NCBI GenBank assembly: GCA_002779825.1
Contig: PEVN01000328.1
Span: 1-33,907 of the forward strand
Length of the DNA stretch: 33,907 bases
From: Armatimonadetes bacterium CG06_land_8_20_14_3_00_66_21
Lineage (GTDB): Bacteria > Armatimonadota > Abditibacteriia > CG2-30-66-41
Direction of reading: 5' to 3'
Below the pieces are notes generated by a model, which saw nothing but the letters and a program-made list of their open reading frames with translations, was not told the DNA's origin and ran no database searches. This document shows, one piece after another, positions 3,941 through 33,812 of the stretch; positions within the stretch are counted from its first letter, which is position 1; the number at the start of each line of letters is the position of its first letter. The position numbers and the translations under genes were made by a program.

Positions 3941-4103
3941 GCTGAATCCTCCGGCAATGCTCCGGTGATGAAGGTTGAGAGTGTACCGCTCCGCGTGCGC
4001 GAGCGCAACAGGAAGAGCGGTCCCTCTCAGCGAACAATGGAATGCCGCCCGGCCGCGAGGCACCCCCGTGGAACCACGAACCTACGTGCGAAGGACGCCG
4101 AGC

Positions 4104-5639
4104 ATGAACCCCATTTGCCGCCCAAATGAGCGGCACCGCCCCTCCAAAGCTGCTCTGGCGAGGCAGCGTGTGCGCCGTGGTCTGTTGGCGGGAGTGGTCT
4201 TCAGTACGGTCGCCTCGGGGGCAGCCCGACCGGCCACGCCGCCGAGCACGCCCAGCTTCTATGTTGACAGCGCCAATGGGAGCGACGCCAACGACGGCCG
4301 CTCTCGCGACACTGCGTGGAAGACGGTGGCGCCGGTGAACGCGATGGTCTTCCCGCCCGGCAGCCATGTTGTGTTCCGCGCGGGGCAGACGTTCGCCGGC
4401 CCCGTCTCGCTGCACGGTTCGGGCAAACGAACGACCCTCAACGTGGTGGATCGTTACGGGCAAGGACCGAACCCACATGTCGCTATCCCGGCGGGACAGG
4501 GAGCCGTCCTGTCGCTGCTCAACGAAGAGTGCTGGGAGGTGCGGAACCTCGAACTGAGTGGAGGCGCCATCGGGGTCTTCACATACCTCAAGGAGTTCGG
4601 CGTCGCCCACCACTTGCACTTCAAGCACCTCGACATCCACGACGTTCGCGGCGGATTGACGGGCGACGACGGCGGCTTCCTTCTCAAGCGCGAAGGACTG
4701 ACCACGTGGTTCGACGATCTGCTGATCGAGGGGTGCAGTATCAAGCGGGTGGACCGGAACGGAATCCTGCACACGGACTACCCGACGGCGTCCGACCAGC
4801 ACCACAGTACGCACGTGGTGATCCGCGGCAACCACCTCCGCGACATCGGTGGCGACGGCATTTTCATTCTCGGTTGCGATGACGCCCTCATCGAGCGCAA
4901 CGTCTTGCGGTACGCCCACCAGCGCGTCGGCCGGCGGCCGGGAGAGCGCGCCTGCGCCGGTATCTGGCCGCACCGCTGCAACCGGACGATCATCCAACTC
5001 AACGAGGTCAGCCACACCGCGGTGGGTGGGGTCACGGTGTGGGACAGTGAAGCCTTTGACGACGACAACAGTTGCCGTGACACCGTCTTCCAGTACAACT
5101 ACAGCCACGACAACGCCGGCGGATTCCTTCTCCTCTGCGGCGGCGCGAAGGGCACGCTCGTCCGCTACAACGTCAGCCAGAACGACGCCGTCGCCACTTT
5201 CAGCCTGGAGGGCGACGGTGTCGAGGACGTCAGCATCTACAACAACGTCTTCTACGTCGGTCCCGACCTGACTGTGAACATGACCCGCAATACCTTCGGA
5301 CACCCCCGCAACGTCCGGTACTTCAACAACCTCTTCTACGCAGAAGGCACGATGACGTACAACCTCGGCGCGGTCGCAGAGACTGCCTTCGAGGACAATG
5401 CCTTCTTTGGAAACCACCCGGGCCGCCCGGCCGAGGCCCACGCTGTGACGAGCGATCCGCTGCTGGTCCGCCCGGGCAGCGGGGGGAACGGCGCGGCCAC
5501 GGCAGCCGGCTACAAACTCAAGCCCGGGTCCCCCTGTCGCAACGCCGGGAAGGCCGTCGCCAACAATGGCGGCCGGGACTTCTGGGGCAATCGGGTGCTA
5601 CGCGACGGGCCGCCCTCGATTGGCGCCCACAACCCGTGA
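4104..5639 (+). CDS. secreted right-handed parallel beta-helix repeat protein (polysaccharide-lyase-like)
   Basis: Signal-like N-terminus, then FYVDSANGSDANDGRSRDTAWKTVAPVNAM...GSHVVFRAGQTFAG and repeated short N/D-rich beta-helix rungs (IEGCSIKRVDRNGILHTDYP..., VIRGNHLRDIGGDGIFILGCDDALIERNVLRYAH). Confidence 0.85.
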   Translation: MNPICRPNERHRPSKAALARQRVRRGLLAGVVFSTVASGAARPATPPSTPSFYVDSANGSDANDGRSRDTAWKTVAPVNAMVFPPGSHVVFRAGQTFAGPVSLHGSGKRTTLNVVDRYGQGPNPHVAIPAGQGAVLSLLNEECWEVRNLELSGGAIGVFTYLKEFGVAHHLHFKHLDIHDVRGGLTGDDGGFLLKREGLTTWFDDLLIEGCSIKRVDRNGILHTDYPTASDQHHSTHVVIRGNHLRDIGGDGIFILGCDDALIERNVLRYAHQRVGRRPGERACAGIWPHRCNRTIIQLNEVSHTAVGGVTVWDSEAFDDDNSCRDTVFQYNYSHDNAGGFLLLCGGAKGTLVRYNVSQNDAVATFSLEGDGVEDVSIYNNVFYVGPDLTVNMTRNTFGHPRNVRYFNNLFYAEGTMTYNLGAVAETAFEDNAFFGNHPGRPAEAHAVTSDPLLVRPGSGGNGAATAAGYKLKPGSPCRNAGKAVANNGGRDFWGNRVLRDGPPSIGAHNP

Positions 5640-7971: not shown

Positions 7972-9249
7972 GCGGCCGACAGCAACGCCGGAACGGAGGC
8001 GTCCCCGTGGAAGACCCTCGCCCGCGCCGGCAAGGCGACGGAGCTGAAGCCCGGCGACACGGTGCTCATCAAGACCGGCGTCTACCGCGAGCACGCAGAG
8101 ATCACCGTGTCCGGCGCGCCCGGCAAGCCGCTCACGTTTGCCGCCGCCCCCGGGCACCGGGTGGTGATCAAGGGATCGGAGATCGTGCGCGGCTTCGGTC
8201 TGACCGCCAGCAAGGTCCACGACGTCGTCCTCCGCGGGCTTGAGGTGCGACACAACCGCCAGCCCGGCGGGCAGTGGCCCCTGGCGGCCATTTCCGGGTG
8301 CGAGTGGGTGACGCTGGAAGACTGCGAGGTCCACTTCGCCGACTTCTGCGGACTGAGCCTGCACAGCTCGAAGGACTGCCTCGTCCGGCGCTGCGATTTC
8401 TCGCACAACGGCGCCATTGGGCTGGCCATGGGCGCCACCGAAGACTGCGTAGTGGAAGACTGCACGCTCATGTTCAACAACTACCGGCGCATCGACGGCG
8501 ACTGGGGCGTAGCGGCCGGCACCAAAAACATCCCCGGCAACAAACGGACGACGATGCGCCGGTGCGAAGCTGCCTACAACCTCGACTGCCGCGGCATCTG
8601 GTTCGACACCGACAACGACGACATCCGCATTCTCGACAACGTCTGCCACCACAACGGCGACTGCGGGATCTTCTTCGAGATCAACAAGGGAGGAGGCGTC
8701 ATCGCCGGCAACCTCATCTACGCCAACACCGGCCGGGGCATTTACGTGTCCGGCTCGCAGAACACGTGGGTCGTGAATAACGCCGTTGCCGACAACGCCG
8801 CCGGAATCGTCGTTATGACCCGCGGCGCCGACGAGCCCGCGAAGAACACCAAGGTGCTCAACAACCTGCTGCTCAAGAACTACATCACCGCCGACACCAC
8901 CACCCGCGGTTGCGGCCTCACGCTGGAGATGTCGCCCGACCCGACCTGGCGCGCGGACATGGGCAGCGTGGCCGACTATAACGTCTACGCGAACAACCCG
9001 TGGACGCCCTTCATGCGCCACACCTGGAACGACAACAACCCGCTGGCCCAGTGGCAGGCACGCTACCAACAGGACTTGCACTCGCGCCTCCTGAACGTCG
9101 CCTACGAACGCGTCGGCACCAGGTTCAGCTTGCTCACACAGGAAGGGCTCGACGCGGCAGCGCCGCTGCCAGAAGCGGTGACGCAGGTCTGGAAGCCCCG
9201 CAACCCCAAGCGCGTTGGGGCGGACCTGACGCAGTGGCCCAAGCCGTGA
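7927..9249 (+). pseudogene. right-handed beta-helix repeat protein, interrupted by one in-frame TAG at 7969-7971
   Basis: The same frame reads TGKTYYVDGPNP[TAG]AADSNAGTEASPWKTLARAGKATELKPGDTVLIKTGVYREHAEITVSGAPGKPLTFAAAPG... then N-rich beta-helix rungs to the stop at 9249. ORF 8062..9249 is the uninterrupted part. Confidence 0.75.
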
Positions 9250-17172: not shown

Positions 17173-19101
17173 TCAGTCTCCCTGCCCCTGCTTGATCGCG
17201 TTGAGCAGCCCGCCCTTGCGGATGACGTCGAGTTGGCGGTCGGTTAGGCCGTGGGTCACCTGGTAGGTAAGGTCCTTGGTGACGTTGCGGACGGCGAGGG
17301 GTTGGTCGGGGGCGAGGGCGGTGGTCAGGCCGGTGAGTTCGAGCTGGTCGCCTTGGTCAATGGTGTCGTAGTCGGCCGGGTCCTCGAAGGTGAGGGGCAG
17401 GATGCGGAAGTTGACTAGGTTGGCTTTGTGGATGCGGGCGAAGGATTTGGCCAGCACTGCTTTCAGCCCCAAGTACATCGGAACCAGCGCCGCGTGCTCG
17501 CGGGAGGAGCCTTGGCCGTAGTTGCCGCCGCCGACGACGAAGCCGCCGCTGGCGTCTTTGGCGCGCTGGGGGAAGGTGCTGTCCACCCCGTAGAACACGG
17601 CCTGCGAGTACGCCGGCACGTTGGAGCGGTACTTGAGCCACGTGCCTGCCGGCATGATGTGGTCGGTGGTGATGTTGTCTTCGAGCTTCAGCAGCACGGG
17701 CCCGCTGAGCTGATCGGGCAGCACCTCCGCCAACGGCAGCGGCGCGATGTTGGGGCCGCGGACGATCTCGACGGAGGCGGGATCGGCCGCGGGCGCGAGG
17801 ACCATGTTGTCGTCGATGGAGAAGCGCTCGGGCATCTCGACCGGCGGCTTGTCGCCGAGGGTGCGCGGGTCGGTGACCACACCCGTCAGGGCGGCGGCAA
17901 CGGCCACTTCGGGGCTGCACAGGTAGACCTTGTCGCCCTCGGTGCCGCTGCGACCGGGGAAGTTGCGGTTGAACGTCCGCAGCGAGACGGCGCCCGAAGG
18001 CGGCGATTGCCCCTGCCCGATGCACGGCCCGCAGCCGGACTCCAGCACCCGCACGCCGGCGGCGATGAGGTCCGCCAGGGCGCCGTTGCGGCCGATCATG
18101 GTGAAGACTTGCTTGGAGCCGGGCGACAGCGTCAGGCTCACGCCGGGGTGCACGCTCTTGCCGGCGAGGGCGTTGGCCACCAGCATCAGGTCCAGGAATG
18201 AGGAGTTGGTACAGCTTCCGACGCACACCTGGGCGACGGGCGTGCCGGCAAGTTCGGTCACCGTCTTGACCGCGTCCGGGCTGGACGGGCAGGCGAGCAG
18301 CGGCTCCAGCTCGCTGAGGTTGATCTCGACGACCTCGTCATACGTCGCGTCGGCGTCGGGACCCAGCTCGCGGTAGGCGTCTTCGCGGCCCTGAGCCTTG
18401 AGGAACGCCTGCGTTGCCGCGTCGCTGGGGAACACCGAGGTGGTGGCGCCTAACTCGGCGCCCATGTTGGTGATGGTCGCGCGCTCGGGCACGCTCAACG
18501 TGCCGACGCCCTCGCCGCAGTACTCCATGATCTTCCCGACGCCGCCCTTGACCGTCAGGCGACGCAGGACCTCGAGGATGACGTCCTTTGCGGCAACCCA
18601 CGGCTGGAGCTGCCCGGAGAGCTTGATGCCCACTACCTTGGGCGTGTTGAGGAAGAACGGCTGCCCAGCCATGGCGCAGGCTACATCCAGCCCGCCGGCG
18701 CCAATTGCCAGGGCGCCGATGCCGCCCGCGGTAGGTGTGTGGCTGTCCGACCCAAGCTGCGTGGCGCCCGGCGCGGCGAAGCGCTCCAGATGCACCTGAT
18801 GGCAGATGCCGTTCCCCGGGCGCGAGAAGTGGATGCCGTACTTCGCGGCGACGCCCTGGAGGTAGCGGTGGTCGTCGGCATTCTCGAACCCGGTCTGCAG
18901 CATGTTGTGGTCGACATAGCTCACGGAGAGCTTGGTCTTCACCCGCGGCAGCCCCATGGCTTCGAACTGGAGGTACGCCATGGTCCCGGTGGCGTCCTGC
19001 GTCAGGGTCTGGTCGATGCGGATCCCGATCTCTTCTCCCGGGGTGAGCGAACCTTCGACGAGGTGCTCTGAGAGGATTCTCTGGACAAGGTTTTGGCCCA
19101 T
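17173..19101 (-). CDS. acnA: aconitate hydratase
   Basis: LVQRILSEHLVEG...EIGIRIDQTLTQDATGTMAYLQFEAMG...SYVDHNMLQTGFENADDHRYL...GSDSHTPTAGGIGALAIGAGGLDVA...CVGSCTNSSFLDL...ESGCGPCIGQGQSPPSGAVSLRTFNRNFPGRSGT...YGQGSSREHAALVPMYLG; full set of aconitase motifs. Confidence 0.95.
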   Translation of the reverse strand: MGQNLVQRILSEHLVEGSLTPGEEIGIRIDQTLTQDATGTMAYLQFEAMGLPRVKTKLSVSYVDHNMLQTGFENADDHRYLQGVAAKYGIHFSRPGNGICHQVHLERFAAPGATQLGSDSHTPTAGGIGALAIGAGGLDVACAMAGQPFFLNTPKVVGIKLSGQLQPWVAAKDVILEVLRRLTVKGGVGKIMEYCGEGVGTLSVPERATITNMGAELGATTSVFPSDAATQAFLKAQGREDAYRELGPDADATYDEVVEINLSELEPLLACPSSPDAVKTVTELAGTPVAQVCVGSCTNSSFLDLMLVANALAGKSVHPGVSLTLSPGSKQVFTMIGRNGALADLIAAGVRVLESGCGPCIGQGQSPPSGAVSLRTFNRNFPGRSGTEGDKVYLCSPEVAVAAALTGVVTDPRTLGDKPPVEMPERFSIDDNMVLAPAADPASVEIVRGPNIAPLPLAEVLPDQLSGPVLLKLEDNITTDHIMPAGTWLKYRSNVPAYSQAVFYGVDSTFPQRAKDASGGFVVGGGNYGQGSSREHAALVPMYLGLKAVLAKSFARIHKANLVNFRILPLTFEDPADYDTIDQGDQLELTGLTTALAPDQPLAVRNVTKDLTYQVTHGLTDRQLDVIRKGGLLNAIKQGQGD

Positions 19102-22510: not shown

Positions 22511-23050
22511 ATGTGTTACTCCAGAGGCTCCCTCCGCGGGGGGCTCTTGCTTAGCTGCTTGGCCGGCATCATCGCGGCTTCCGGGTGCGTGGCCGCGGGC
22601 GAGCTGGAAGTGGGCAACAAGATCCCGCCGCTCTTTATCAAAGCGCTTTCGGGGAAGACCGCAAACCTGAAGTCACTGTGCAGTCCGGGCGAGGCAGTTG
22701 TCCTGACGTTTTGGCGCAAGTTCCTTCCGGTCACCGGCGCTCACCTCCCCGCTATGGAGAAGCTCAACACTAAGTACTCGCCCAAAGTCACCCTGGTGGG
22801 CTTCGCGTTGGACATTGAGACGAAGGAAGAGCTGGACGCCTATTTTCAGCGCCTCAAGCCAGCGCCCACCTTTGAGACGTGCGGGAGCGCCGTGAGCAAA
22901 CAAGTCGCGGCGAAGTTCGGCGTGCAGTCGCATCCCACCGTGTGTGTTGTCAACCCGGAGGGAGTGATCACGTACGTGGAGACAGGGTTCGGGGCGAAGA
23001 CGGCCGGTGAGATTGACGAGGCGATCAAGAAGGTACTGGCCGGCAAGTAG
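22511..23050 (+). CDS. redoxin/thioredoxin-fold lipoprotein lacking the CXXC motif
   Basis: Lipobox-like LAGIIAASGC; VGNKIPPLFIKALSGKTANLKSLCSPGEAVVLTFWRKFLPVTGAHLPAMEKL...AAKFGVQSHPTVCVVNPEGVITYVETGFG; the cis-Pro region is kept and the CXXC position reads KFLPVTG. Confidence 0.75.
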   Translation: MCYSRGSLRGGLLLSCLAGIIAASGCVAAGELEVGNKIPPLFIKALSGKTANLKSLCSPGEAVVLTFWRKFLPVTGAHLPAMEKLNTKYSPKVTLVGFALDIETKEELDAYFQRLKPAPTFETCGSAVSKQVAAKFGVQSHPTVCVVNPEGVITYVETGFGAKTAGEIDEAIKKVLAGK

Positions 23051-23183
23051 GCGCGTGCTCTCAGGGGCTGTCCGGTCGCCGGTTCCCCGGTTTCTCTACA
23101 GGCCTTGGAGCGGCTTGGGGCGGCCGCATGGCGGCATGGTTGCAGGTGCGGGCTGACTGCCCGCATGCATTCGGAGGAGCGGC

Positions 23184-23699
23184 TTGATCACTCGCGTCAT
23201 CATTGAGCAGTTCTACGAGAACTTCGAGGAGGCCACCGTCGGCCAATGGCTGAAGGCGGAGGGAGACCGGGTCGAGAACGAAGAGCCTCTGGTCGAGCTG
23301 ATCACCGACAAGGCGACGTTCGAGTACGAATCTCCCGGCGCCGGCGTACTGCGTCGCCTCGTCGCCCAGGAGAAGAGCGCGGTGCCGGTGGGCTATGTCA
23401 TCGGCGTGCTCGGGGAACCGGACGACGCACTGCCCGACGTCGACCAGGAGAACTCGGAGCTGCTCGCCAAGAAGCAGGCCGAGCAGCAACTCGAAGCCAA
23501 CGCTGTCGGCGCGACGCCCCTGATCCGCAAGGCGCGTGCGGGCCGAGGCGTCCGAGCCACCCCGAAGGCCCGCGCGCGGGCACGCGAAGCAGGAGTAGAC
23601 CTCGAAGAGATCGCTCAGACTTCGGACGCGAAGATGCTCTCGGAAGAGGACGTGGAGCGGTTCCTCGTCCAGCGCCAGCAGCAAGGGCAGCCATGCTGA
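23184..23699 (+). CDS. lipoyl domain + E3-binding (PSBD) domain protein, E2-like without the catalytic acyltransferase domain
   Basis: EATVGQWLKAEGDRVENEEPLVELITDKATFEYESPGAGVLRRLVAQEKSAVPVGYVIGVLGE (lipoyl DKA motif) and GVRATPKARARAREAGVDLEEIAQTSDAKMLSEEDVERFL (PSBD); stops at 171 aa. TTG start inferred. Confidence 0.85.
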   Translation: MITRVIIEQFYENFEEATVGQWLKAEGDRVENEEPLVELITDKATFEYESPGAGVLRRLVAQEKSAVPVGYVIGVLGEPDDALPDVDQENSELLAKKQAEQQLEANAVGATPLIRKARAGRGVRATPKARARAREAGVDLEEIAQTSDAKMLSEEDVERFLVQRQQQGQPC

Positions 23700-24079
23700 T
23701 CCACGGCATCGGGACAGACATTGTGGAGATCGACCGGGTGGCGGCACTCATCGCCAAGTGGGATGAACGGTTCTTGGGGAAAGTGTTCTTCCAGGACGAG
23801 ATCGACTACTGCCGCAGTCGCCGCAGCTTTGCCCAGCACTTCGCCGCGCGGATTGCCGCCAAAGAGGCCGCCAGCAAAGCCTTAGGCACAGGGTGGCGAA
23901 ACGGAGTGCACTGGAAGACTGTCCAAATTGCCCGTCAGCCCGGCGCACGCCCGACCATCCAGTTGCACGGTCGCGCAAAGGAGCTTGCGGAGCAGTGGGG
24001 AGTCGGCGCCATTCACCTCACGATGTCCCACAGCAACAGCCACGCGATCGCTGACGTCCTCATGGAGAGGGCGGCCTGA
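23693..24079 (+). CDS. acpS: holo-[acyl-carrier-protein] synthase (4'-phosphopantetheinyl transferase)
   Basis: MLIHGIGTDIVEIDRVAALIAKWDERFLGKVFFQDEIDYC...QHFAARIAAKEAASKALGTGWRNGVHWKTVQI...LTMSHSNSHAIADVLME. Confidence 0.93.
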   Translation: MLIHGIGTDIVEIDRVAALIAKWDERFLGKVFFQDEIDYCRSRRSFAQHFAARIAAKEAASKALGTGWRNGVHWKTVQIARQPGARPTIQLHGRAKELAEQWGVGAIHLTMSHSNSHAIADVLMERAA

Positions 24080-24155: not shown

Positions 24156-24899
24156 ATGATTCTCGACGGAAAATCCGCTCTCGTCACTGGCAGCTCCCGC
24201 GGCATCGGGAAGGCCATCGCGCTTGCGCTGGCGGACGCTGGGGCTGACGTGCTCGTCAACTACCGCGCGCGCGATGCCGAGGCAAACTCTGTGGTGACGG
24301 AGATCGAGAGCAAGGGGCGTCGCGCCATCTGCGTGCAGGCAGACGTGGGCGTCGCCACCGACGTGGACCGAATGGTGCAGGCAGCGCTGGAGGCGTTTGG
24401 CAAGATCGACGTGCTGGTCAACAACGCCGGCATCGTGCGCGACAAGTTCCTGGCATTCATGTCCGAAGCAGACTGGGACGAGGTCCTCGACACGAACCTG
24501 AAAGGGGCCTTCTTCTGCACCAAAGCGGTCAGCAAGCAGATGGTCCGGCAGAAGAGCGGGAAGATCATCAACATCTCCTCCGCTGCCGGTCTCCTGGGCG
24601 ACATGCTGCGGGTCAACTACTCCGCCGCCAAAGCCGGGATGATCGGGATGACGAAGGCCGCGGCGCGTGAGTTGGCGGCACGCGGCGTTACCGTCAACGC
24701 TTTGGCCCCGGGGTTGATCGAGACTGAGATCACCTCGGATATGAAGGACAACCGCCGGCAACAGCTCCTGAGCATGATTCCCGCCGCCCGCTTTGGGGCA
24801 CCGGAGGAAGTCGCGTCCGTGGTCGTGTTCTTAGCCTCCCCCGCAGCGGATTACCTGACCGGACAGGTGCTCTCGGTGGACGGCGGATTGAGGATGTAG
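24156..24899 (+). CDS. fabG: 3-oxoacyl-ACP reductase-type SDR
   Basis: LDGKSALVTGSSRGIGKAIALALADAGADV...VLVNNAGIVRDKFLAFMSEADWDEVLDTNLKGAFFCTKAV...SSAAGLLGDMLRVNYSAAKAGMIGMTKAAARELAARGVTVNALAPGLIETEIT...YLTGQVLSVDGGL. Confidence 0.93.
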   Translation: MILDGKSALVTGSSRGIGKAIALALADAGADVLVNYRARDAEANSVVTEIESKGRRAICVQADVGVATDVDRMVQAALEAFGKIDVLVNNAGIVRDKFLAFMSEADWDEVLDTNLKGAFFCTKAVSKQMVRQKSGKIINISSAAGLLGDMLRVNYSAAKAGMIGMTKAAARELAARGVTVNALAPGLIETEITSDMKDNRRQQLLSMIPAARFGAPEEVASVVVFLASPAADYLTGQVLSVDGGLRM

Positions 24900-24903
24900 C
24901 GCA

Positions 24904-27027
24904 GTGAACAGCATTCGGCAGCGGTTGCAGGGCAAGCTACGCGGACGGGCGATCTGCTGGTTGACCGCCCTACTGGCGGCACTGGTGTGCGCAAGTTTGG
25001 GCGGCAGCCACTGGCTGAGGGCGCAGGAAGAGGACGGACAGGGCGCGGTCGCCCCGAACTCCGCAAAGGCGGAAACAGAGACCGCCAAGAAGCTGAAAGA
25101 CCTCACCGCGGCCACCAACGACTACCTGTCCAACACCGACCCCAAGTCCGCCACCTACCAGATCAATGGGCCGTTCCTCCTTCTCCGACTCGAGAAGGCT
25201 CGGATGCTGGCGGCAAGGAGTTCGTCCTACTATTACAGCTCCGCGCGAGTCGAGGACGAGTTGAAGGTCGTCCAACAGGCGCTCGACTTGAGCAAGCGCG
25301 GCACCCCGATCTACGAAGGCATGACGGGGCTCCAGGAGCGGGCATACGTCTCCGCCGCCGACCGCTCCCCGCAACCCTACTGGGTGAACGTGCCCAAAGC
25401 CTACACCAGAGACAAGCAGTGGCCGCTGGTTGTCTTCCTGCACGGCTACGATCCGTCCATTGACAAGGTCAACGCCTGGCTGCCCTCCCGCGACGTGCTG
25501 CAGGTGTTCGAGGATCGTGGCTACGTGCTGCTGATTCCCTACGGTCGCCGCAACACCGACTTCGTGAGCATCGGCGAGGTGGACACGTTGAAGGCGACCG
25601 CGGAGTGCCGCAAGGTGTTCAACATCGACCCCGACCGGGTCTACCTGGCGGGCGTCTCCATGGGCGGGTACGGAGTTTACGCGGTCGGGATGCACTACCC
25701 GGACCTCTTCGCAGCCATCGCTCCCGCTTGCGGACGAACGGACCACTACTTCTGGCAGAAGCTCAAGCGGGACAAAGTCGCGGGCTTCAAGCGGCCTCTG
25801 ATCGATGCCGACAACCCCCTCGACCTGGTCGAAAACCTGCGCAACGTGCCGACGCACCTACAGCAGGGCCAGCACGATACTCTGGTGGACCCCGAAAACT
25901 CGCACCGCATCCTGAAGGAGTTCGAGAAGCGCGGCTTCAAGGCGAAGTACGAGGAGATCCCCGGGGAAGACCACTGGATCTACTTCAAGACCGACTGCTA
26001 CGTACGGATGCTGGACTGGTTCGACAAGTTCCGCCGCGACCCTGTACCCAAGGTAGTCACGTACACCACGTACCTGCCCAAGTACCGGCGCGCCTACTGG
26101 GTAGCTCTGGACGAGTTCATCAAGTGGGGGCAGCGCACCACCGTTCGCGCCGAAGCCGCTGAGGGCAACGCCCTCGAGATCACCACGCAAAACGTGGCCG
26201 CCCTCACGGTGACTTTCGCCCCCGGTTTGCTGGACTACACGCGCGACGTGTTCGTCAAAGTCAATGGCAAGCAGGCGTTCGCAGGCAAGCCGAAGGCCGG
26301 CGACCATCTCGCCATTCGCGTCGGCACTCCCGACGAAGGCGACGTGCCCAACGGCGCAGTCCCCAAGTCGTGGCGGCTCTCCGGGCCCGTCAGAGAGGCG
26401 TACAACGAGGCGTTCACCTTCGTCTACGGGACGAGTGGTGACGACACCGCGGACACAGACCTGCTGGACCAGGCGAAACGTGCCGCCCGCGAGTGGCAGC
26501 AGTTCGCAGACGGCATTCCCGAGGTGAAGCCCGACACCGCCGTGACCGACGCCGACCTCAAAGGCCGGAACCTCGTGCTCTTCGGCGATGAGGGCACCAA
26601 CTCCCTGGTAGGGCAGATGCGCGACAAACTGCCGTTTCGACTGGAGAATGGAACTGTGTGCCTCGGGGACCGCACCTATGACTACAAGGCAGACCGGCTT
26701 GGCTTCATGCTCTGCTACCCGAATCCCCTGGCTGTGAACCGACTTGCCGTGTTCTGCACCGGCCGGTTCTGGGGCGACGCGCTACCAATCAACCACAAGT
26801 TTGACCTCCTGCCGGATTTCATCGTCTATAGCAGCGAAGTCGACGCCAGCGACAAGACCAATCGGTTCTTGTGTGCTGGCTTCTTCGACAAGGACTGGCG
26901 CTTCGACCCGGACGCCGTATGGCTGGCCTCGGCCAACGGAAAGACCGACGCTGGCGCCCACGAAGGGGACGCACGGCCGGACAAGACGACGGGAGTCAGC
27001 GTCCGCCTGCTGGAACGGAAAAGCTGA
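24904..27027 (+). CDS. secreted alpha/beta hydrolase (prolyl-oligopeptidase/PHB-depolymerase-like esterase)
   Basis: GTG start, signal-like N-terminus (ICWLTALLAALVCASLGGSHWLRAQ), WPLVVFLHGYDPSIDKVNAW...RVYLAGVSMGGYGVYAVGMHYPDLFAAIAPACG...QGQHDTLVDPENSHRIL...GEDHWIYF. Confidence 0.82.
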   Translation: MNSIRQRLQGKLRGRAICWLTALLAALVCASLGGSHWLRAQEEDGQGAVAPNSAKAETETAKKLKDLTAATNDYLSNTDPKSATYQINGPFLLLRLEKARMLAARSSSYYYSSARVEDELKVVQQALDLSKRGTPIYEGMTGLQERAYVSAADRSPQPYWVNVPKAYTRDKQWPLVVFLHGYDPSIDKVNAWLPSRDVLQVFEDRGYVLLIPYGRRNTDFVSIGEVDTLKATAECRKVFNIDPDRVYLAGVSMGGYGVYAVGMHYPDLFAAIAPACGRTDHYFWQKLKRDKVAGFKRPLIDADNPLDLVENLRNVPTHLQQGQHDTLVDPENSHRILKEFEKRGFKAKYEEIPGEDHWIYFKTDCYVRMLDWFDKFRRDPVPKVVTYTTYLPKYRRAYWVALDEFIKWGQRTTVRAEAAEGNALEITTQNVAALTVTFAPGLLDYTRDVFVKVNGKQAFAGKPKAGDHLAIRVGTPDEGDVPNGAVPKSWRLSGPVREAYNEAFTFVYGTSGDDTADTDLLDQAKRAAREWQQFADGIPEVKPDTAVTDADLKGRNLVLFGDEGTNSLVGQMRDKLPFRLENGTVCLGDRTYDYKADRLGFMLCYPNPLAVNRLAVFCTGRFWGDALPINHKFDLLPDFIVYSSEVDASDKTNRFLCAGFFDKDWRFDPDAVWLASANGKTDAGAHEGDARPDKTTGVSVRLLERKS

Positions 27028-28259
27028 TGCGACAGGTAGCAATCACCGGTGTTGGCATCGTTTCTTGCCTCGGCGACAGCGTCGACACCTTCTGGCGCGC
27101 GCTGTGCGCAGGCGAGTGCGGGCTCCGCCCCATCACCAAGCTCGACACCACCGGCTTGCGGAACGAGAATGCCGGGGAGGTGCAGGAGTTCGCACTGAGC
27201 GAGCACTTGCCCGCAGACGCTGCAGCAGGAGCCTTTGGGGATCTCGACGAGGCGTCGCAGTATGCCCTCGCCGCCGCCTGGGACGCTTGGACTGACGCCG
27301 GTTTAACCGCAACTCCGCCAGACCCGGACCGCGTCGGAGTCGCCTTCTCCACCAACTTCGGCGGCGCCGAGTCCTGGGAAGTCTACTGCGCCGACCTCGC
27401 CGGGGGCGACGCGGACCCGGCTCTGTTCAGTAGCTTCGCCTTCAACGACGCGGCTGATCACACGGCACGGCTGCTGCGCGCCGGGGGACCGAAGCTGACG
27501 CTCTCCAACTCGTGCTCTTCCGGCGCAACCGCAATGGGGACCGCGTTCGACCTGTGTCGCGCGGGGCGAGCCGACGTCGTGGTGACAGGCGGCCACGACA
27601 GCCTGGGGCTTTCGAGCCTGGCCGGACTGAGCATCCTGCGGACCATCTCTCCCGACACGTGCCGCCCGTTTGACAAGAACCGAAGCGGAACAGTCTTCGC
27701 TGAAGGGGCGGGGATGCTCGTGTTGGAGGACCTCGAACACGCGCTGCGCCGCGGCGCGAGGATCTACGGACTCATGCTTGGGTACGGCGTCAACAACAAC
27801 GCCTATCACTTGACGGCCCCCGACAAGGGGGGCGCCGGCATGGTCTCGGTGCTTCGGATGGCGCTGGTCAGCGCGCAGGTTGCACCAACCGAGGTCGACT
27901 ATGTGAACGCCCACGCCACCGGCACGCAATACCATGACGTGGCAGAGATGCAAGCCGTCAAGGAGATCCTGGGGCAACGCGCGTACGAAATCCCGATGAC
28001 TTCCATCAAGGGCGCCACCGGCCACGGCATGGCCGCCGCCGGAGCTATGGAGGCGATTGCCACGCTGCTGACGATGCGCGACGGAATTGTGCCGCCCACC
28101 ATCCACTACGAGACGCCCGACCCCGAGTGCGATCTGGACTGCGTCCCCAACGAGGCGCGGGCGCAGCACATTGCGACGGCGGTCTCCATCTCTGCAGGCA
28201 TCGGGGGCAACAACTCGGCAGTTGTGCTGCGGAAGTCACTGGGTGGAGGTGAGGCATGA
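27027..28259 (+). CDS. beta-ketoacyl-ACP synthase (KS alpha / FabF-like) with an intact catalytic triad
   Basis: MRQVAITGVGIVSCLGDSVDTFWRAL...LTLSNSCSSGATAMGTAFDLCRAGRADVVVTGGHDSL...FDKNRSGTVFAEGAGMLVLEDLEHA...VNAHATGTQYHDVAEMQAVKEILG...SIKGATGHGMAAAGAMEAI. Confidence 0.92.
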   Translation: MRQVAITGVGIVSCLGDSVDTFWRALCAGECGLRPITKLDTTGLRNENAGEVQEFALSEHLPADAAAGAFGDLDEASQYALAAAWDAWTDAGLTATPPDPDRVGVAFSTNFGGAESWEVYCADLAGGDADPALFSSFAFNDAADHTARLLRAGGPKLTLSNSCSSGATAMGTAFDLCRAGRADVVVTGGHDSLGLSSLAGLSILRTISPDTCRPFDKNRSGTVFAEGAGMLVLEDLEHALRRGARIYGLMLGYGVNNNAYHLTAPDKGGAGMVSVLRMALVSAQVAPTEVDYVNAHATGTQYHDVAEMQAVKEILGQRAYEIPMTSIKGATGHGMAAAGAMEAIATLLTMRDGIVPPTIHYETPDPECDLDCVPNEARAQHIATAVSISAGIGGNNSAVVLRKSLGGGEA

Positions 28260-29365
28260 TCGCCGAACCGCAGGTCGTCCTCACCGGCGTCGGTCCCGTA
28301 AGCGCAGCAGGCATCGGGCGAGACGAGTTCCTTCGCGGCGTTCGTTCCGGTGAGGACTTCGTTGCTCCCGTTTCCTTGTTCCCGACCGACGGTCTCCCCT
28401 GCTCCGCCGCCGTTGAGGTCAAGGGTCTCAACCTGGGTGAGCACTTGGCGTCGGAGAAGACGTACCTCGACCGGTGCTCGGAGTTCGCCCTTGCCTCCGC
28501 CAGCCTGGCGTTGCGGGACGCCGGTCTCACCCTCACCGACGACAATCGCCACCGAGTCGGCGTCTGTCTCGGCAGCGCATACGGTTGCCTGGGGACGATG
28601 CGGACGTTCTATGAGCGTTTGCTCACAAAGGGCGCGAAGTTCGCGAACTCGCTGCTGTTCAGTCACTCCTACGTGAACACCCCCATCAGCCTCGTGGCCA
28701 TCGAGTTCGGCATCCAGGGATTCCACTGCGCGTACACCAACGGGCTGACCTCCGGGCTGACCGCCATTGCCCATGCGTGCGACGTTCTCCGCAGCGGTCA
28801 AGCCGAGGTGCTCCTTGCCGGTGGCACCGACGCCCTCTGCGAGACGCTGTTCCGCGCTCTCTGCGATGCCGGGACGCTGGCACCCGACGGGAGCGCCGAA
28901 GGGTGGCGGCTCGGCGAAGGCTCCGGAGTGCTTGTGTTGGAGACCGCGGAACACGCCCGGGCGCGCGGAGCCCGCGTGCTCGCGACGTTTGCAGGCTGCG
29001 GGATGGCGAATGACCTCGAGTTCAATGGCGACGGCGTGAGACGCGCGATGCAGCAGGCGCTCGCCGGCGCCGGAATCTCGGCCGCCGAGGTGGACAGCCT
29101 CTACCTCAGTGCCAACGGAACTGGCGTTAGTGATGGAGCCGAACGCCGCGCGGTGGACGAACTGTTCGGCGAGCTGGCACCAAACTGCCACGCCCTGAAG
29201 CAGCGGCTCGGCGAGCCGCTGGCTGCAGGGGGACCGCTCTGCGCGATTGCAGCGCTCGGAGAGACCGAGAGCGGCTCGGCCGCGCTGATCAACTCGGTCG
29301 ACCGCGGTGGCGGCTGCGTTTCGCTGGCCCTCCGGCGTGGCGAGGGGGCGGCTGCCACCTCATGA
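28256..29365 (+). CDS. chain-length-factor-like (KS beta) condensing-enzyme homologue lacking the catalytic Cys/His/His
   Basis: MIAEPQVVLTGVGPVSAAGIGRDEFLRGV...CAYTNGLTSGLTAIAHACDVLRSGQAEVLLAGGTDAL...GWRLGEGSGVLVLETAEHARARGARV...YLSANGTGVSDGAERRAVDELFG...HALKQRLGEPLAAGG; starts by ATGA overlap with the KS. Confidence 0.85.
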   Translation: MIAEPQVVLTGVGPVSAAGIGRDEFLRGVRSGEDFVAPVSLFPTDGLPCSAAVEVKGLNLGEHLASEKTYLDRCSEFALASASLALRDAGLTLTDDNRHRVGVCLGSAYGCLGTMRTFYERLLTKGAKFANSLLFSHSYVNTPISLVAIEFGIQGFHCAYTNGLTSGLTAIAHACDVLRSGQAEVLLAGGTDALCETLFRALCDAGTLAPDGSAEGWRLGEGSGVLVLETAEHARARGARVLATFAGCGMANDLEFNGDGVRRAMQQALAGAGISAAEVDSLYLSANGTGVSDGAERRAVDELFGELAPNCHALKQRLGEPLAAGGPLCAIAALGETESGSAALINSVDRGGGCVSLALRRGEGAAATS

Positions 29366-30318
29366 GCCTGACGACCCAGCAGCTCGTGGACTGCTACCGC
29401 TCGATGCTCCTCATCCGCGAGTTCGAGGACCGCGTGGATGCCCTGTTCAGTCAAGGCGTCATCCGCGGCACCTCTCACCTCTACGCCGGACAGGAAGCCA
29501 TTGCCGTCGGCACCTGCGCCGCGCTGCGCCCGGCCGATCTCATCAGCAGCACCCACCGCGGGCACGGGCACTTCCTTGCGAAGGGCGGCGACCCAAAGCT
29601 CATCATGGCCGAGTTGTTCGGCAAAGTAACAGGCTATGCCGGCGGCCGCGGGGGAAGTCAACACGTGGCGTGCTTCGAGCTGGGATTCCTCGGCTCCAAC
29701 GGCATCACCGGCGGTCTGATCCCCGTTGCCACGGGCGCCGCGCTGGCCATCAAGCAGCAGGGACGCAGCGAAGTCGTCGGCTGCTTCTTCGGCGAAGGCG
29801 CCTCGAATCAGGGAACGTTCCATGAGGCAATCAACATGGGCGCGATCTGGAAGTTGCCCGTGATCTACCTCTGCGAGAACAACCTGTACGCCATGTTCAC
29901 TCCGGCCGAACAGACGATTCCAGTCGCGAGTGTGGCGGACCGCGCCGCAGCCTATGGCATTCCCGGTGTCGTCGTGGACGGCAATGACCTGTTCGCCGTC
30001 TACGACGCCGTCGGCACCGCAGCGGTCCGCGCCCGCGCCGGCGAGGGACCAACGCTCCTGGAGGCAAAGACGTACCGGTTCTACGGACACTCCAAGTCCG
30101 ACAAGCGGGAGTACCGAACCACCGACGAAGAGGCCCACTGGCACGCGCGGGACCCGATCCCGCGCCTTGCGGAGCACTTGCTGACTCACGGCGTCAGCCA
30201 GCCCCAACTCGACCAGCTCCGCGAGGAGATGAAACGCCTCATCGACGAGTCCGTTGACTTCGCCGACCAGTCTCCCGAGCCCGAAGGTGCCACCGCCGCG
30301 GCCGGTCTGTTCGCCTGA
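29362..30318 (+). CDS. TPP-dependent 2-oxoacid dehydrogenase E1 component, alpha subunit
   Basis: LLIREFEDRVDALFSQGVIRGTSHLYAGQEAIAVGTCAAL...STHRGHGHFLAKGGD...GRGGSQHVACFELGFLGSNGITGGLIPVATGAALA...CFFGEGASNQGTFHEAINMGAIWKLPVIYLCENN (TPP motif)...YRFYGHSKSDKREYR. Confidence 0.92.
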   Translation: MSLTTQQLVDCYRSMLLIREFEDRVDALFSQGVIRGTSHLYAGQEAIAVGTCAALRPADLISSTHRGHGHFLAKGGDPKLIMAELFGKVTGYAGGRGGSQHVACFELGFLGSNGITGGLIPVATGAALAIKQQGRSEVVGCFFGEGASNQGTFHEAINMGAIWKLPVIYLCENNLYAMFTPAEQTIPVASVADRAAAYGIPGVVVDGNDLFAVYDAVGTAAVRARAGEGPTLLEAKTYRFYGHSKSDKREYRTTDEEAHWHARDPIPRLAEHLLTHGVSQPQLDQLREEMKRLIDESVDFADQSPEPEGATAAAGLFA

Positions 30319-30374: not shown

Positions 30375-31352
30375 ATGGCTGAACTCTACTACTCCTGGGC
30401 AATCCGCGACGCGTTAGCCGAAGAAATGGCGCGCGACGAACGCGTGTTCTGCCTGGGCGAAGACATCGAGACGTACGGCGGCGCCTTCCGCACCACCGCC
30501 GGTCTATCGGAACGCTTCCCGACTCGCGTGATGAACACGCCCATCTCCGAGAACTCCATCGTCGGCGTAGCCACAGGCGCCGCCCTGCTGGGACAGCGGC
30601 CCGTGGTCGAGATCATGTTCATGGACTTCCTCACCCTTGCCATGGACCAGATTCTCAACCACGCCACCAAATTCCACTACGTCTACGGAGAGCAGGCGAA
30701 GGTCCCGTTGGTGATCCGCACCCCCGCCGGCGGCGGTCGGTGCTACGGACCGACGCACTCGCAGAGCCTCGAGTCCATGTTCCTGAGCGTGCCCGGGCTC
30801 AAGATCGCCGCGCCGGCAACGCCGGCCGACGCCAAGGGCATGCTGAAATCCGCCATCCGCGATGACAACCCGGTCCTGTTCATCGAGGGAAAACTGCTCT
30901 ACAACCGAAAGCGCGAAGTCCCCGACGAGGAGTACCTCGTTCCGCTCGGCAAAGCGCGCGTCGTCCGCGAGGGAGGCGACCTCACGCTCGTCGCCTACTC
31001 CCGGATGGTCGAGGAATGCGAGAAGGCGTGCGACGCTCTGGAGCAGGCCGGCGCCTCCGTCGAACTGATCGACCTGAGGAGCTTGGCGCCACTGGATCTC
31101 GATACGGTTCTCACCTCCCTGGAGAAGACCGGGCGGGTCGTCCTCGTTGAAGAGGGGCCGAAGACCGGCGGCGTCTGCGCCGAGATCTCGGCACAGTTGT
31201 CGGAGCAGGCATTCGACCTGCTCGAAGCGCCCCTCACCCGCGTCGCCGCTTTGGATATCCCAATTCCCAACGCCAACTCCCTCGAGCAAGCGACATTGCC
31301 CAACGCCGCCAAGATCGCCGCGGCCGCGCGCCACTTGCTGGAGGAGTACTGA
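30375..31352 (+). CDS. TPP-dependent 2-oxoacid dehydrogenase E1 component, beta subunit
   Basis: YYSWAIRDALAEEMARDERVFCLGEDIETYGGAFRTTAGLSERFPTRVMNTPISENSIVGVATGAALLGQRPVVEIMFMDFLTLAMDQILNHATKFHYVYG...PLVIRTPAGGGRCYGPTHSQSLESMF...EGPKTGGVCAEISAQL. Confidence 0.94.
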   Translation: MAELYYSWAIRDALAEEMARDERVFCLGEDIETYGGAFRTTAGLSERFPTRVMNTPISENSIVGVATGAALLGQRPVVEIMFMDFLTLAMDQILNHATKFHYVYGEQAKVPLVIRTPAGGGRCYGPTHSQSLESMFLSVPGLKIAAPATPADAKGMLKSAIRDDNPVLFIEGKLLYNRKREVPDEEYLVPLGKARVVREGGDLTLVAYSRMVEECEKACDALEQAGASVELIDLRSLAPLDLDTVLTSLEKTGRVVLVEEGPKTGGVCAEISAQLSEQAFDLLEAPLTRVAALDIPIPNANSLEQATLPNAAKIAAAARHLLEEY

Positions 31353-31415
31353 CACACCCGGTACGTCCGCGCGCACCGAGGGCTCGTGCCAACAGCCCCT
31401 GCTGACAGCCCCGCC

Positions 31416-32285
31416 ATGTTGAACACCGGTCTCGTCTCGATCATCGTCCTCAACCACAACAAGGCCGCCTACTCAGCGGCGTGCCTGGATAGCTTGCTGT
31501 ACTCCACCTACTCGCCGCTGGAGGTCATTGCCGTCGACAACGGCTCTGCAGACGCGACACCCACCGTGCTCCAGGAGTTCCGGGAAAAGGCGCAGCAGCG
31601 GGGCATCCACTGCGAGCTGCTCACCAACGATTCCAATGTGGGCGCCATTGTCGGCCGTAACCAGGCTCTAGAGCGAGCGACCGGCGAGTACCTCGCGTTC
31701 GTCGACAACGACGTGCTCGTGCGCGACCGCGACTGGCTGGAGAAGCTGCGGAGCGCACTGGAGGCGGACCCGCAGACCGGCATCGTCAGCGCCAAGCTGT
31801 TGTTCCCGTGGCCACCACACGCTCTCGAATTCGCCGGGTGCGCCGTCACCCCCAACGGTCGCATCCAGTACCTGGGCCGTGGTGAGGCGGGCGACGCCCC
31901 CGAGCACAACGAGCAGAAGGAAGTGCAGTGCGTTATCAGTGCCTGCCTCATGTTCCGGCGCGCCCTGGTCGAGGAGATCGGCATGCTGGACGAGGTGTTC
32001 AGCCCGGTGCAATACGAGGACCTGGACTTCTGCTACCGGGCTCGGGCTGCCGGGTACCGAGTTCTGTACGTCCCCTCGGCGGCGATGTACCACTACGAGC
32101 ACACCACTACCAGCCGCTCCGTTGACCTCAACTTTCAGTACGTTACGATTAGAAACGGCATGACGTTCAAGAAGCGGTGGCAGCACGTGTTCGCTTCCGA
32201 GGGCGGCCCGACCGACGAGGAAGCAAAGTGGCGCGACCTGCCCCGGAAAACCATCGAGCAGTGCCCGCCGCCGGTTCCGCAGTAG
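31416..32285 (+). CDS. glycosyltransferase family 2
   Basis: VSIIVLNHNKAAYSAACLDSLLYSTYSPLEVIAVDNGSADATP...GRNQALERATGEYLAFVDNDVLVRDRDWLEKL...EYEDLDFCYRA-type region (VQYEDLDFCYRARAAGYRVLYVPSAAMYHYEH). Confidence 0.93.
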   Translation: MLNTGLVSIIVLNHNKAAYSAACLDSLLYSTYSPLEVIAVDNGSADATPTVLQEFREKAQQRGIHCELLTNDSNVGAIVGRNQALERATGEYLAFVDNDVLVRDRDWLEKLRSALEADPQTGIVSAKLLFPWPPHALEFAGCAVTPNGRIQYLGRGEAGDAPEHNEQKEVQCVISACLMFRRALVEEIGMLDEVFSPVQYEDLDFCYRARAAGYRVLYVPSAAMYHYEHTTTSRSVDLNFQYVTIRNGMTFKKRWQHVFASEGGPTDEEAKWRDLPRKTIEQCPPPVPQ

Positions 32286-32384: not shown

Positions 32385-32648
32385 ATGGCAAGCGATGAAC
32401 TGAAACCCAAACTGAAAGCAATGATCGTCGAGCGCCTGTTCCTCAACGTGGCGCCGGAAGACATCAAGGACGATGAGTCGTTGATGGACACGTACAACAT
32501 CGACTCAGTTGCCCTGTTCGAGGTGGTCGTGGGGCTTGAGGAGGACTTCGGCGTCTCCATGGAAGACGACGAGTTCAGCCTCGACCTGTTTGAGAATGTC
32601 AATTCCGTCGCGGAGTTTGTCGAGAAGAAGCTTGCGGGAGGCGATTGA
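32385..32648 (+). CDS. acyl carrier protein
   Basis: ELKPKLKAMIVERLFLNVAPEDIKDDESLMDTYNIDSVALFEVVVGLEEDFGVSMEDDEFSLDLFENVNSVAEFVEKKL; phosphopantetheine DSV motif. Confidence 0.93.
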   Translation: MASDELKPKLKAMIVERLFLNVAPEDIKDDESLMDTYNIDSVALFEVVVGLEEDFGVSMEDDEFSLDLFENVNSVAEFVEKKLAGGD

Positions 32649-32681: not shown

Positions 32682-33812
32682 ATGCGCGTCCTCTACCTCA
32701 ACCACGTTTCCCAGGTGGGCGGCGCGGAGACGAGCCTGCTCTCGATGGTAGCGGGCGCGCGCGGCGCGGGCGTCGATTCGCGCGTTGTCCTCCCGGGGCC
32801 GGGTCCTCTGGCCGACAGGCTCCAAGCGCTGGGAGTGCCGGTTGACCGGGCGCCGCTCTACCGCGTCCACCGAACGAAGAACCCGCTTCGGCTGGCACGC
32901 CTGGGCCTAACCCTCGAACGCGTCGCCCATCGGCTGGAGGGTCTGTCTCGGCGCAATGAGGTCGACGTAGTCCACTCCAACAGTACCACCGCACACCTCT
33001 TCGCCGCCTACGCCCGTCCCCGCCTCGGCGCACCCCTGGTGTGGCACGTTCGCGATCTCGTGTCGCTGGGGCGCTGGGCACCGTGGCTTTCCACCCAAGC
33101 GCGAGCGATCCTCGCGATCTCGCAGGCGGCAGCGGACAAACTCGTCGAAGAGGGCACTGAGAGCGAGAAGATCGCCGTCATCCACCCGGGCGTTGCGGCT
33201 CCCGAGACGCACAACCGACGCGCGGAAATCCGCGCGGAATGGGGGTGCACTGACGAACAGGTAGTCTTCGGGATGGCCGGGCAGATTGTGCCGTGGAAGG
33301 GTCATCGCGACTTCCTCAACGCGGCGACGATCGTGGCCAACAAGTTTGACGAGGCTCGCTTCGCCCTGGTGGGAGACGACCTGTTCGGGGACCATCCGGA
33401 CCTCTGCACCGAAGTGCGGGCCAGGGCAGCCGCGCCGCCTTTGGCGGGCCGAGCAATCGTCACCGGGCACCGGGAAGACATCGGCGACGTGCTGGACGCC
33501 GTAGACTGCCTTGTGCTCCCCTCCCATGGCGAGCCCTTCGGTCGGGTGCTCGTGGAGGCGATGCTGCTGGGGAAACCGGTCGTCGCGACCGGTGCTGGCG
33601 GCCCGAGAGAGATCGTCGAGCAGGGCGCCACCGGTCTGCTCGTCCCCCAGCAAGATCCCGCAGCGCTGGCCGCGGCGATGCTGGAGGTCGCCCGGAACCG
33701 CGCGGACGCAGCGCGGATGGGCGCAGGGGGGCGCCGCCGCGCTCGCCTCCTTTTCAGCGTGGAACGGAACGTCGAGAAAACGGTCGAAGTGTACCGCGAC
33801 CTTCTCGGCTGA
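32682..33812 (+). CDS. glycosyltransferase family 4 (GT-B)
   Basis: MRVLYLNHVSQVGGAETSLLSMVAGARGAG...VVHSNSTTAHLFAAYARPRLGAPLVWHVRDL...VFGMAGQIVPWKGHRDFLNAA...VLPSHGEPFGRVLVEAMLLGKPVVATGAGGPREIVEQGATGLLVPQQDPAALAAAM. Confidence 0.93.
   Translation: MRVLYLNHVSQVGGAETSLLSMVAGARGAGVDSRVVLPGPGPLADRLQALGVPVDRAPLYRVHRTKNPLRLARLGLTLERVAHRLEGLSRRNEVDVVHSNSTTAHLFAAYARPRLGAPLVWHVRDLVSLGRWAPWLSTQARAILAISQAAADKLVEEGTESEKIAVIHPGVAAPETHNRRAEIRAEWGCTDEQVVFGMAGQIVPWKGHRDFLNAATIVANKFDEARFALVGDDLFGDHPDLCTEVRARAAAPPLAGRAIVTGHREDIGDVLDAVDCLVLPSHGEPFGRVLVEAMLLGKPVVATGAGGPREIVEQGATGLLVPQQDPAALAAAMLEVARNRADAARMGAGGRRRARLLFSVERNVEKTVEVYRDLLG

Follow-up and report, generated by a model that had tools for sequence, protein, structure and literature searches.

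Where does the acyl group go when an E2-type protein carries a lipoyl arm but no acyltransferase domain? The question is raised by a 171-aa protein, here called LipE3, encoded at 23184..23699 (plus strand) of the window, i.e. the whole stretch of 33,907 nucleotides analysed from Armatimonadetes bacterium CG06_land_8_20_14_3_00_66_21, whose end (33907) is also the contig end. The initial annotation described LipE3 as a stand-alone lipoyl and E3-binding "E2" lacking the acyltransferase domain. It also proposed the acyl carrier protein (ACP) or ketosynthase (KS) of the neighbourhood as acyl acceptor.

The short protein LipE3

Pfam finds two domains in LipE3: Biotin_lipoyl at residues 15-75 (41.9 bits, cut-off 22.1), with Lys43 in an ITDK motif, and E3_binding at residues 123-144 (24.6 bits, just above the cut-off of 23.7), which is a divergent peripheral-subunit-binding domain (PSBD). 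No further domain is given, neither the catalytic domain 2-oxoacid_dh (CAT) nor the GCV_H-type domain of the lipoate proteins GcvH and LbpA. The E3_binding match spans only positions 1-22 of the 36 of the model because LipE3 lacks the usual GTGxxGR loop. The PSBD residues R130 and R134 are nevertheless invariant across alignment A1, which comprises 16 relatives of LipE3. In the AlphaFold2 model (mean pLDDT 91.8) the lipoyl domain is a beta-barrel, residues 86-107 form a helix and the PSBD is helical (127-166). Foldseek matches include biotin carriers too, as the fold is common, but a biotin carrier identity is rejected: the T[DE]K motif stands in a lipoyl context, and among solved sequences the closest are E2 lipoyl domains.

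The gene starts with TTG at 23184, 4 bases after a ribosome-binding-site-like motif, GGAGGAG, read in the sequence at 23173..23179 (plus strand), and its stop overlaps by 7 bases the start of acpS (ATG 23693). Immediately upstream lies a gene for a TlpA/ResA-like thioredoxin-fold protein with a lipoprotein-signal-like N-terminus (22511-23050), for which a non-systematic search of the compared relatives' loci gave no match.

A search of the phylum with alignment A1 separates two populations. Short LipE3 forms match with E-values no higher than 1e-41 and occur in 48 of the 291 Armatimonadota genomes, whereas the E-values of full E2s are about 1e-35 or higher. The 46 distinct short sequences measure 160-182 aa, the full E2s 345-480 aa. 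After the PSBD match the chain continues for 0-12 aa in the former versus 198-385 aa in the latter, and the C-terminal catalytic/core domain is absent from all 46. The lipoyl lysine, within T[DE]K, is present in all of them, and 45 lack the GTGxxGR loop. The sole short protein with the usual loop (GSGPDGMI; L212, G190:C160, 9494-9976) may represent an early-diverging lineage or have been truncated independently. By organism titles, in a pattern-limited scan, the relatives are placed in Armatimonadota, plus one Planctomycetota MAG (L121) and one Brocadiaceae MAG (L128).

A frameshift or an assembly error hiding a downstream CAT domain is rejected because 48 genomes share the short form. A CAT profile search of the loci of the short proteins (L044-L145) found no such domain, so that the relatives in this gene context all lack it. 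LipE3 is thus a genuine, conserved short E2, and its first description as stand-alone and without catalytic core was right.

The genome of the window also encodes three full E2s, all on other contigs and each with its own lipoyl domain. A stand-alone CAT protein elsewhere in this genome is rejected, the three CAT matches being these same proteins. One full E2 adjoins E1 alpha/beta genes and the two others lie near a dihydrolipoyl-dehydrogenase-type gene; ordinary complexes therefore exist apart from the LipE3 cluster.

The gene cluster and its dedicated E1

LipE3 lies in a co-directional run on the plus strand in which several joints overlap by 4-7 bases. It is followed by the holo-ACP synthase AcpS (23693..24079; Pfam ACPS, TIGR00516 above cut-off), a FabG-type 3-oxoacyl-ACP reductase (24156..24899; TIGR01830 above cut-off), an esterase/PHB-depolymerase-like protein (24904..27027; Pfam and locus comparison), two ketosynthase-type proteins, KS1 (27021..28259) and KS2 (28256..29365), and the E1 alpha (29362..30318; Pfam/NCBIfam) and E1 beta (30375..31352; NF006667 above cut-off) of a 2-oxoacid dehydrogenase. 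Next come a family 2 glycosyltransferase (GT2, 31386..32285; Pfam PF00535), an ACP with the motif DSVALFE (32385..32648; Pfam PP-binding) and a GT4-type glycosyltransferase (32682..33812; Pfam). The cluster contains no E3, malonyl transferase or dehydratase. Among the compared loci the esterase gene, between FabG and KS1, has an equivalent only in L062; it is thus lineage-specific and outside the core set. Elsewhere in the window, one protein of 642 aa (17173-19101, minus strand) is aconitase-like by eye, and two others (3975-5639 and 8062-9249) resemble by eye right-handed beta-helix, pectate-lyase-like proteins.

Alignment of the active sites indicates that KS1, assigned like KS2 by Pfam, retains Cys-His-Lys-His. 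None of the relatives checked has kept the active-site Cys of KS2, and the His is gone wherever the region aligns. The pair fits the residue pattern of type II KS and chain-length factor (CLF), i.e. a competent KS and a partner without active Cys, and by this loss of active-site residues KS2 resembles chain-length factors. E1 alpha keeps both its ThDP motif (GEG...ENN) and the GHSKSD loop motif.

The order LipE3-(AcpS)-FabG-KS1-KS2-E1 alpha-E1 beta-GT2-ACP is repeated in loci from many Armatimonadota families. The ACP gene is often followed by GT4 and by HYD2-HYD1, two conserved alpha/beta hydrolases. These resemble TIGR03101 and TIGR03100, with scores below the NCBIfam cut-offs in L062 (148 vs 202.75 bits for hydrolase 2, 123.5 vs 168.45 bits for hydrolase 1). 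In the genome of the window the HYD2-HYD1 pair lies on another contig with no detectable ACP adjoining (L304, G000:C428, 10498-12065). Genome G246, which carries an E1/LipE3/KS set, also has a second HYD2-HYD1-ACP set beside a TIGR03098-related AMP-binding ligase (L305, G246:C11, 7935-11655).

In some genomes the set is split, LipE3-FabG-KS1-KS2-E1 alpha being in one place and E1 beta-GT2-ACP-HYD2-HYD1 in another, and in some LipE3 and E1 sit on different contigs. Four loci (L054, L056, L060 and L071) have AcpS-FabG-KS1-KS2 sets with no adjoining LipE3 or E1; two genomes with sets of this kind, G214 and G216, encode LipE3 and E1 alpha on other contigs. That E1 is simply absent where the LipE3 locus has none is rejected, since 13 of the 14 such genomes searched encode a cluster-type E1 alpha elsewhere (the exception is G212).

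In a tree of 80 E1 alpha sequences the cluster-type proteins form a clade of 37 rows (support 100/98), apart from the other E1 alphas of the same genomes, though some long branches meet and deep placement is unsure. This clade includes the E1 alpha of the window and takes in scattered copies from LipE3 genomes. At a threshold of 350 bits a cluster-type E1 alpha is found in 41 of the 48 LipE3 genomes versus 11 of the 243 others (p about 2e-32, uncorrected for shared ancestry). The mismatches at this threshold are thus 7 LipE3 genomes without a strong E1 alpha match and 11 E1 alpha genomes without LipE3, several of them incomplete. That LipE3 and the cluster-type E1 alpha travel together is well supported, and we infer that they act together.

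Fate of the acyl group

In the scheme that we propose, the PSBD of LipE3 would dock the cluster's own E1 (alpha and beta), which would decarboxylate a 2-oxoacid and reductively acylate the lipoyl arm. The KS1/KS2 pair or the ACP, rather than CoA, would then receive the acyl group. A malonyl transferase recruited from the fatty acid pathway would allow its extension with a malonyl unit, and FabG would carry out the reduction. The resulting acyl or hydroxyacyl group on the ACP may finally be attached to a glycan or lipid of the cell surface that the linked glycosyltransferases and hydrolases would build, while an E3 from another complex of the cell would reoxidise the lipoyl arm. LipE3, a natural didomain of lipoyl domain and PSBD, would thus act as a dedicated coreless E2 that feeds E1-made acyl groups to a KS1/KS2-ACP line. 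Lipoylation, docking to E1, the acyl acceptor, the borrowed E3 and malonyl transferase, and the product are the predicted parts of this scheme, which as a whole we judge slightly on the probable side. With less confidence, we consider it plausible that this coreless dehydrogenase uses the E1-charged free lipoyl-PSBD protein as a shuttle that loads the type II KS/CLF directly, lipoate replacing CoA or ACP as starter donor, in a hitherto undescribed Armatimonadota pathway to a surface product.

An isolated lipoyl domain is a substrate of E1 (PMC6270654), so that, by analogy, a lipoyl-PSBD didomain would in principle be enough for the first half-reaction. The missing PSBD loop could mean that docking is altered or lost. 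For the second half-reaction we favour the KS (or the ACP) as acceptor because the CAT domain is missing and a KS/CLF pair is part of the gene set. The product may be a surface glycan or lipid, as suggested by the linked glycosyltransferases and by the MurJ-like flippase that L072 encodes.

The acceptor put forward by the initial annotation, ACP or KS, fits the conserved linkage with KS, CLF, ACP, AcpS and the dedicated E1, but an alpha/beta hydrolase or a full E2 in trans could serve too. The hydrolases are the main alternative: E1 and LipE3 would make acyl-lipoyl and a separate acyltransferase, most likely HYD1 or HYD2, would move the acyl group to the ACP. HYD2 and HYD1 do come after ACP and E1 beta in the second gene block of many genomes, and their likeness to TIGR03101 and TIGR03100 also speaks for such a role. 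However, the pair is on another contig in the genome of the window, and the second HYD2-HYD1-ACP set of G246 adjoins an AMP-binding ligase instead of E1/LipE3. This arrangement suggests that the hydrolase-ACP module can take acyl groups from different sources, and that HYD1 and HYD2 more likely act after the ACP has been loaded; we thus regard transfer by a hydrolase as rather unlikely. In 2-oxoacid dehydrogenase complexes lipoyl domains are known to pass acyl groups to one another, and with three full E2s in the genome LipE3 could pass its acyl group to one of them in trans. Acyl-CoA would result, and the short protein would only widen the supply to ordinary metabolism or to a KS using acyl-CoA. 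But LipE3 has no core-binding segment after its PSBD, and such a relay leaves unexplained both the dedicated E1 clade and the fixed link to KS, CLF, ACP and AcpS, which makes it improbable.

Two other readings take LipE3 away from acyl delivery to KS or ACP. As an accessory subunit of a normal pyruvate dehydrogenase complex it would act like an E3-binding protein (E3BP), with which it shares the two domains of protein X/E3BP; PDHX is among its sequence matches. E3BPs nevertheless have a C-terminal core-binding domain (PMC10156792), whereas LipE3 has at most 12 residues after the PSBD match, and neither an E3 nor a full E2 is encoded near it. This reading is very improbable. Alternatively the lipoyl arm could have a redox or other role, e.g. 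by serving E1 in an acyl-anion reaction on a substrate bound to the ACP, and carry no acyl group to KS or ACP. There are lipoyl proteins with non-canonical roles, e.g. LbpA, which takes part in sulfur oxidation (PMC6067878), but here E1 retains its usual ThDP and GHSKSD motifs and the PSBD is kept, which indicates ordinary reductive acylation; we give a redox role a low probability.

If delivery to the KS1/KS2-ACP line is true, acyl groups can enter polyketide or fatty-acid-type chemistry directly from a lipoyl arm, and the short protein is a genetic handle for finding such clusters.

Comparison with known systems

LipE3 has in common with the E2s of pyruvate and other 2-oxoacid dehydrogenase complexes the order of lipoyl domain and PSBD and the linkage to E1 alpha/beta. 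It differs from them by the absence of CAT and hence of a core, by a PSBD without GTGxxGR loop, and by its single short chain; the E2 catalytic core has been described as the invariable scaffold of such complexes (PMC10156792). E3BP/protein X (mammalian PDHX, fungal PX) also combines lipoyl domain and PSBD without acyltransferase activity, but it has a core-binding C-terminal domain and resides in the PDH core, whereas the chain of LipE3 stops after the PSBD and its gene is linked to a KS cluster.

The KS pair and the ACP recall the cispentacin system, in which the KS-CYF pair AmcF-AmcG likewise associates a KS, a partner without functional motifs and one ACP (PMC10698177). There the starter is loaded by a ligase, AmcH, in contrast to the LipE3 cluster, which has E1/LipE3 and no ligase. 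AmcB is the best NCBIfam match of the ACP (59.1 bits, below the cut-off of 80) and KS1 also matches AmcF (236.7 bits, below the cut-off of 325). HYD1 and HYD2 are, like the exosortase-A-associated hydrolases 1 and 2 (TIGR03100 and TIGR03101), side by side near an ACP and glycosyltransferases. This likeness remains below the curated cut-offs, and the E1/LipE3/KS set replaces the AMP ligase that adjoins the second copy in G246.

Feeding of an ACP by a PDH-type E1 and a lipoyl domain has a precedent in the quinocarcin (QncN/QncL/QncM) and scleric acid (SclQ1-4) systems, where a two-carbon unit goes to an ACP instead of CoA to give glycolicacyl-ACP (PMC6335953). Like the present cluster, they combine an ACP and a lipoyl domain with alpha and beta subunits of PDH/transketolase-like type. 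QncL and SclQ4 nevertheless retain the acyltransferase catalytic domain that LipE3 lacks, and the Qnc and Scl proteins include no KS/CLF, whereas the LipE3 cluster has KS, CLF, FabG and AcpS. Lipoyl-dependent acyl delivery to an ACP is therefore known, but the open-licence literature that we searched gave no match for a dedicated E2 that has no core and is linked to KS/CLF.
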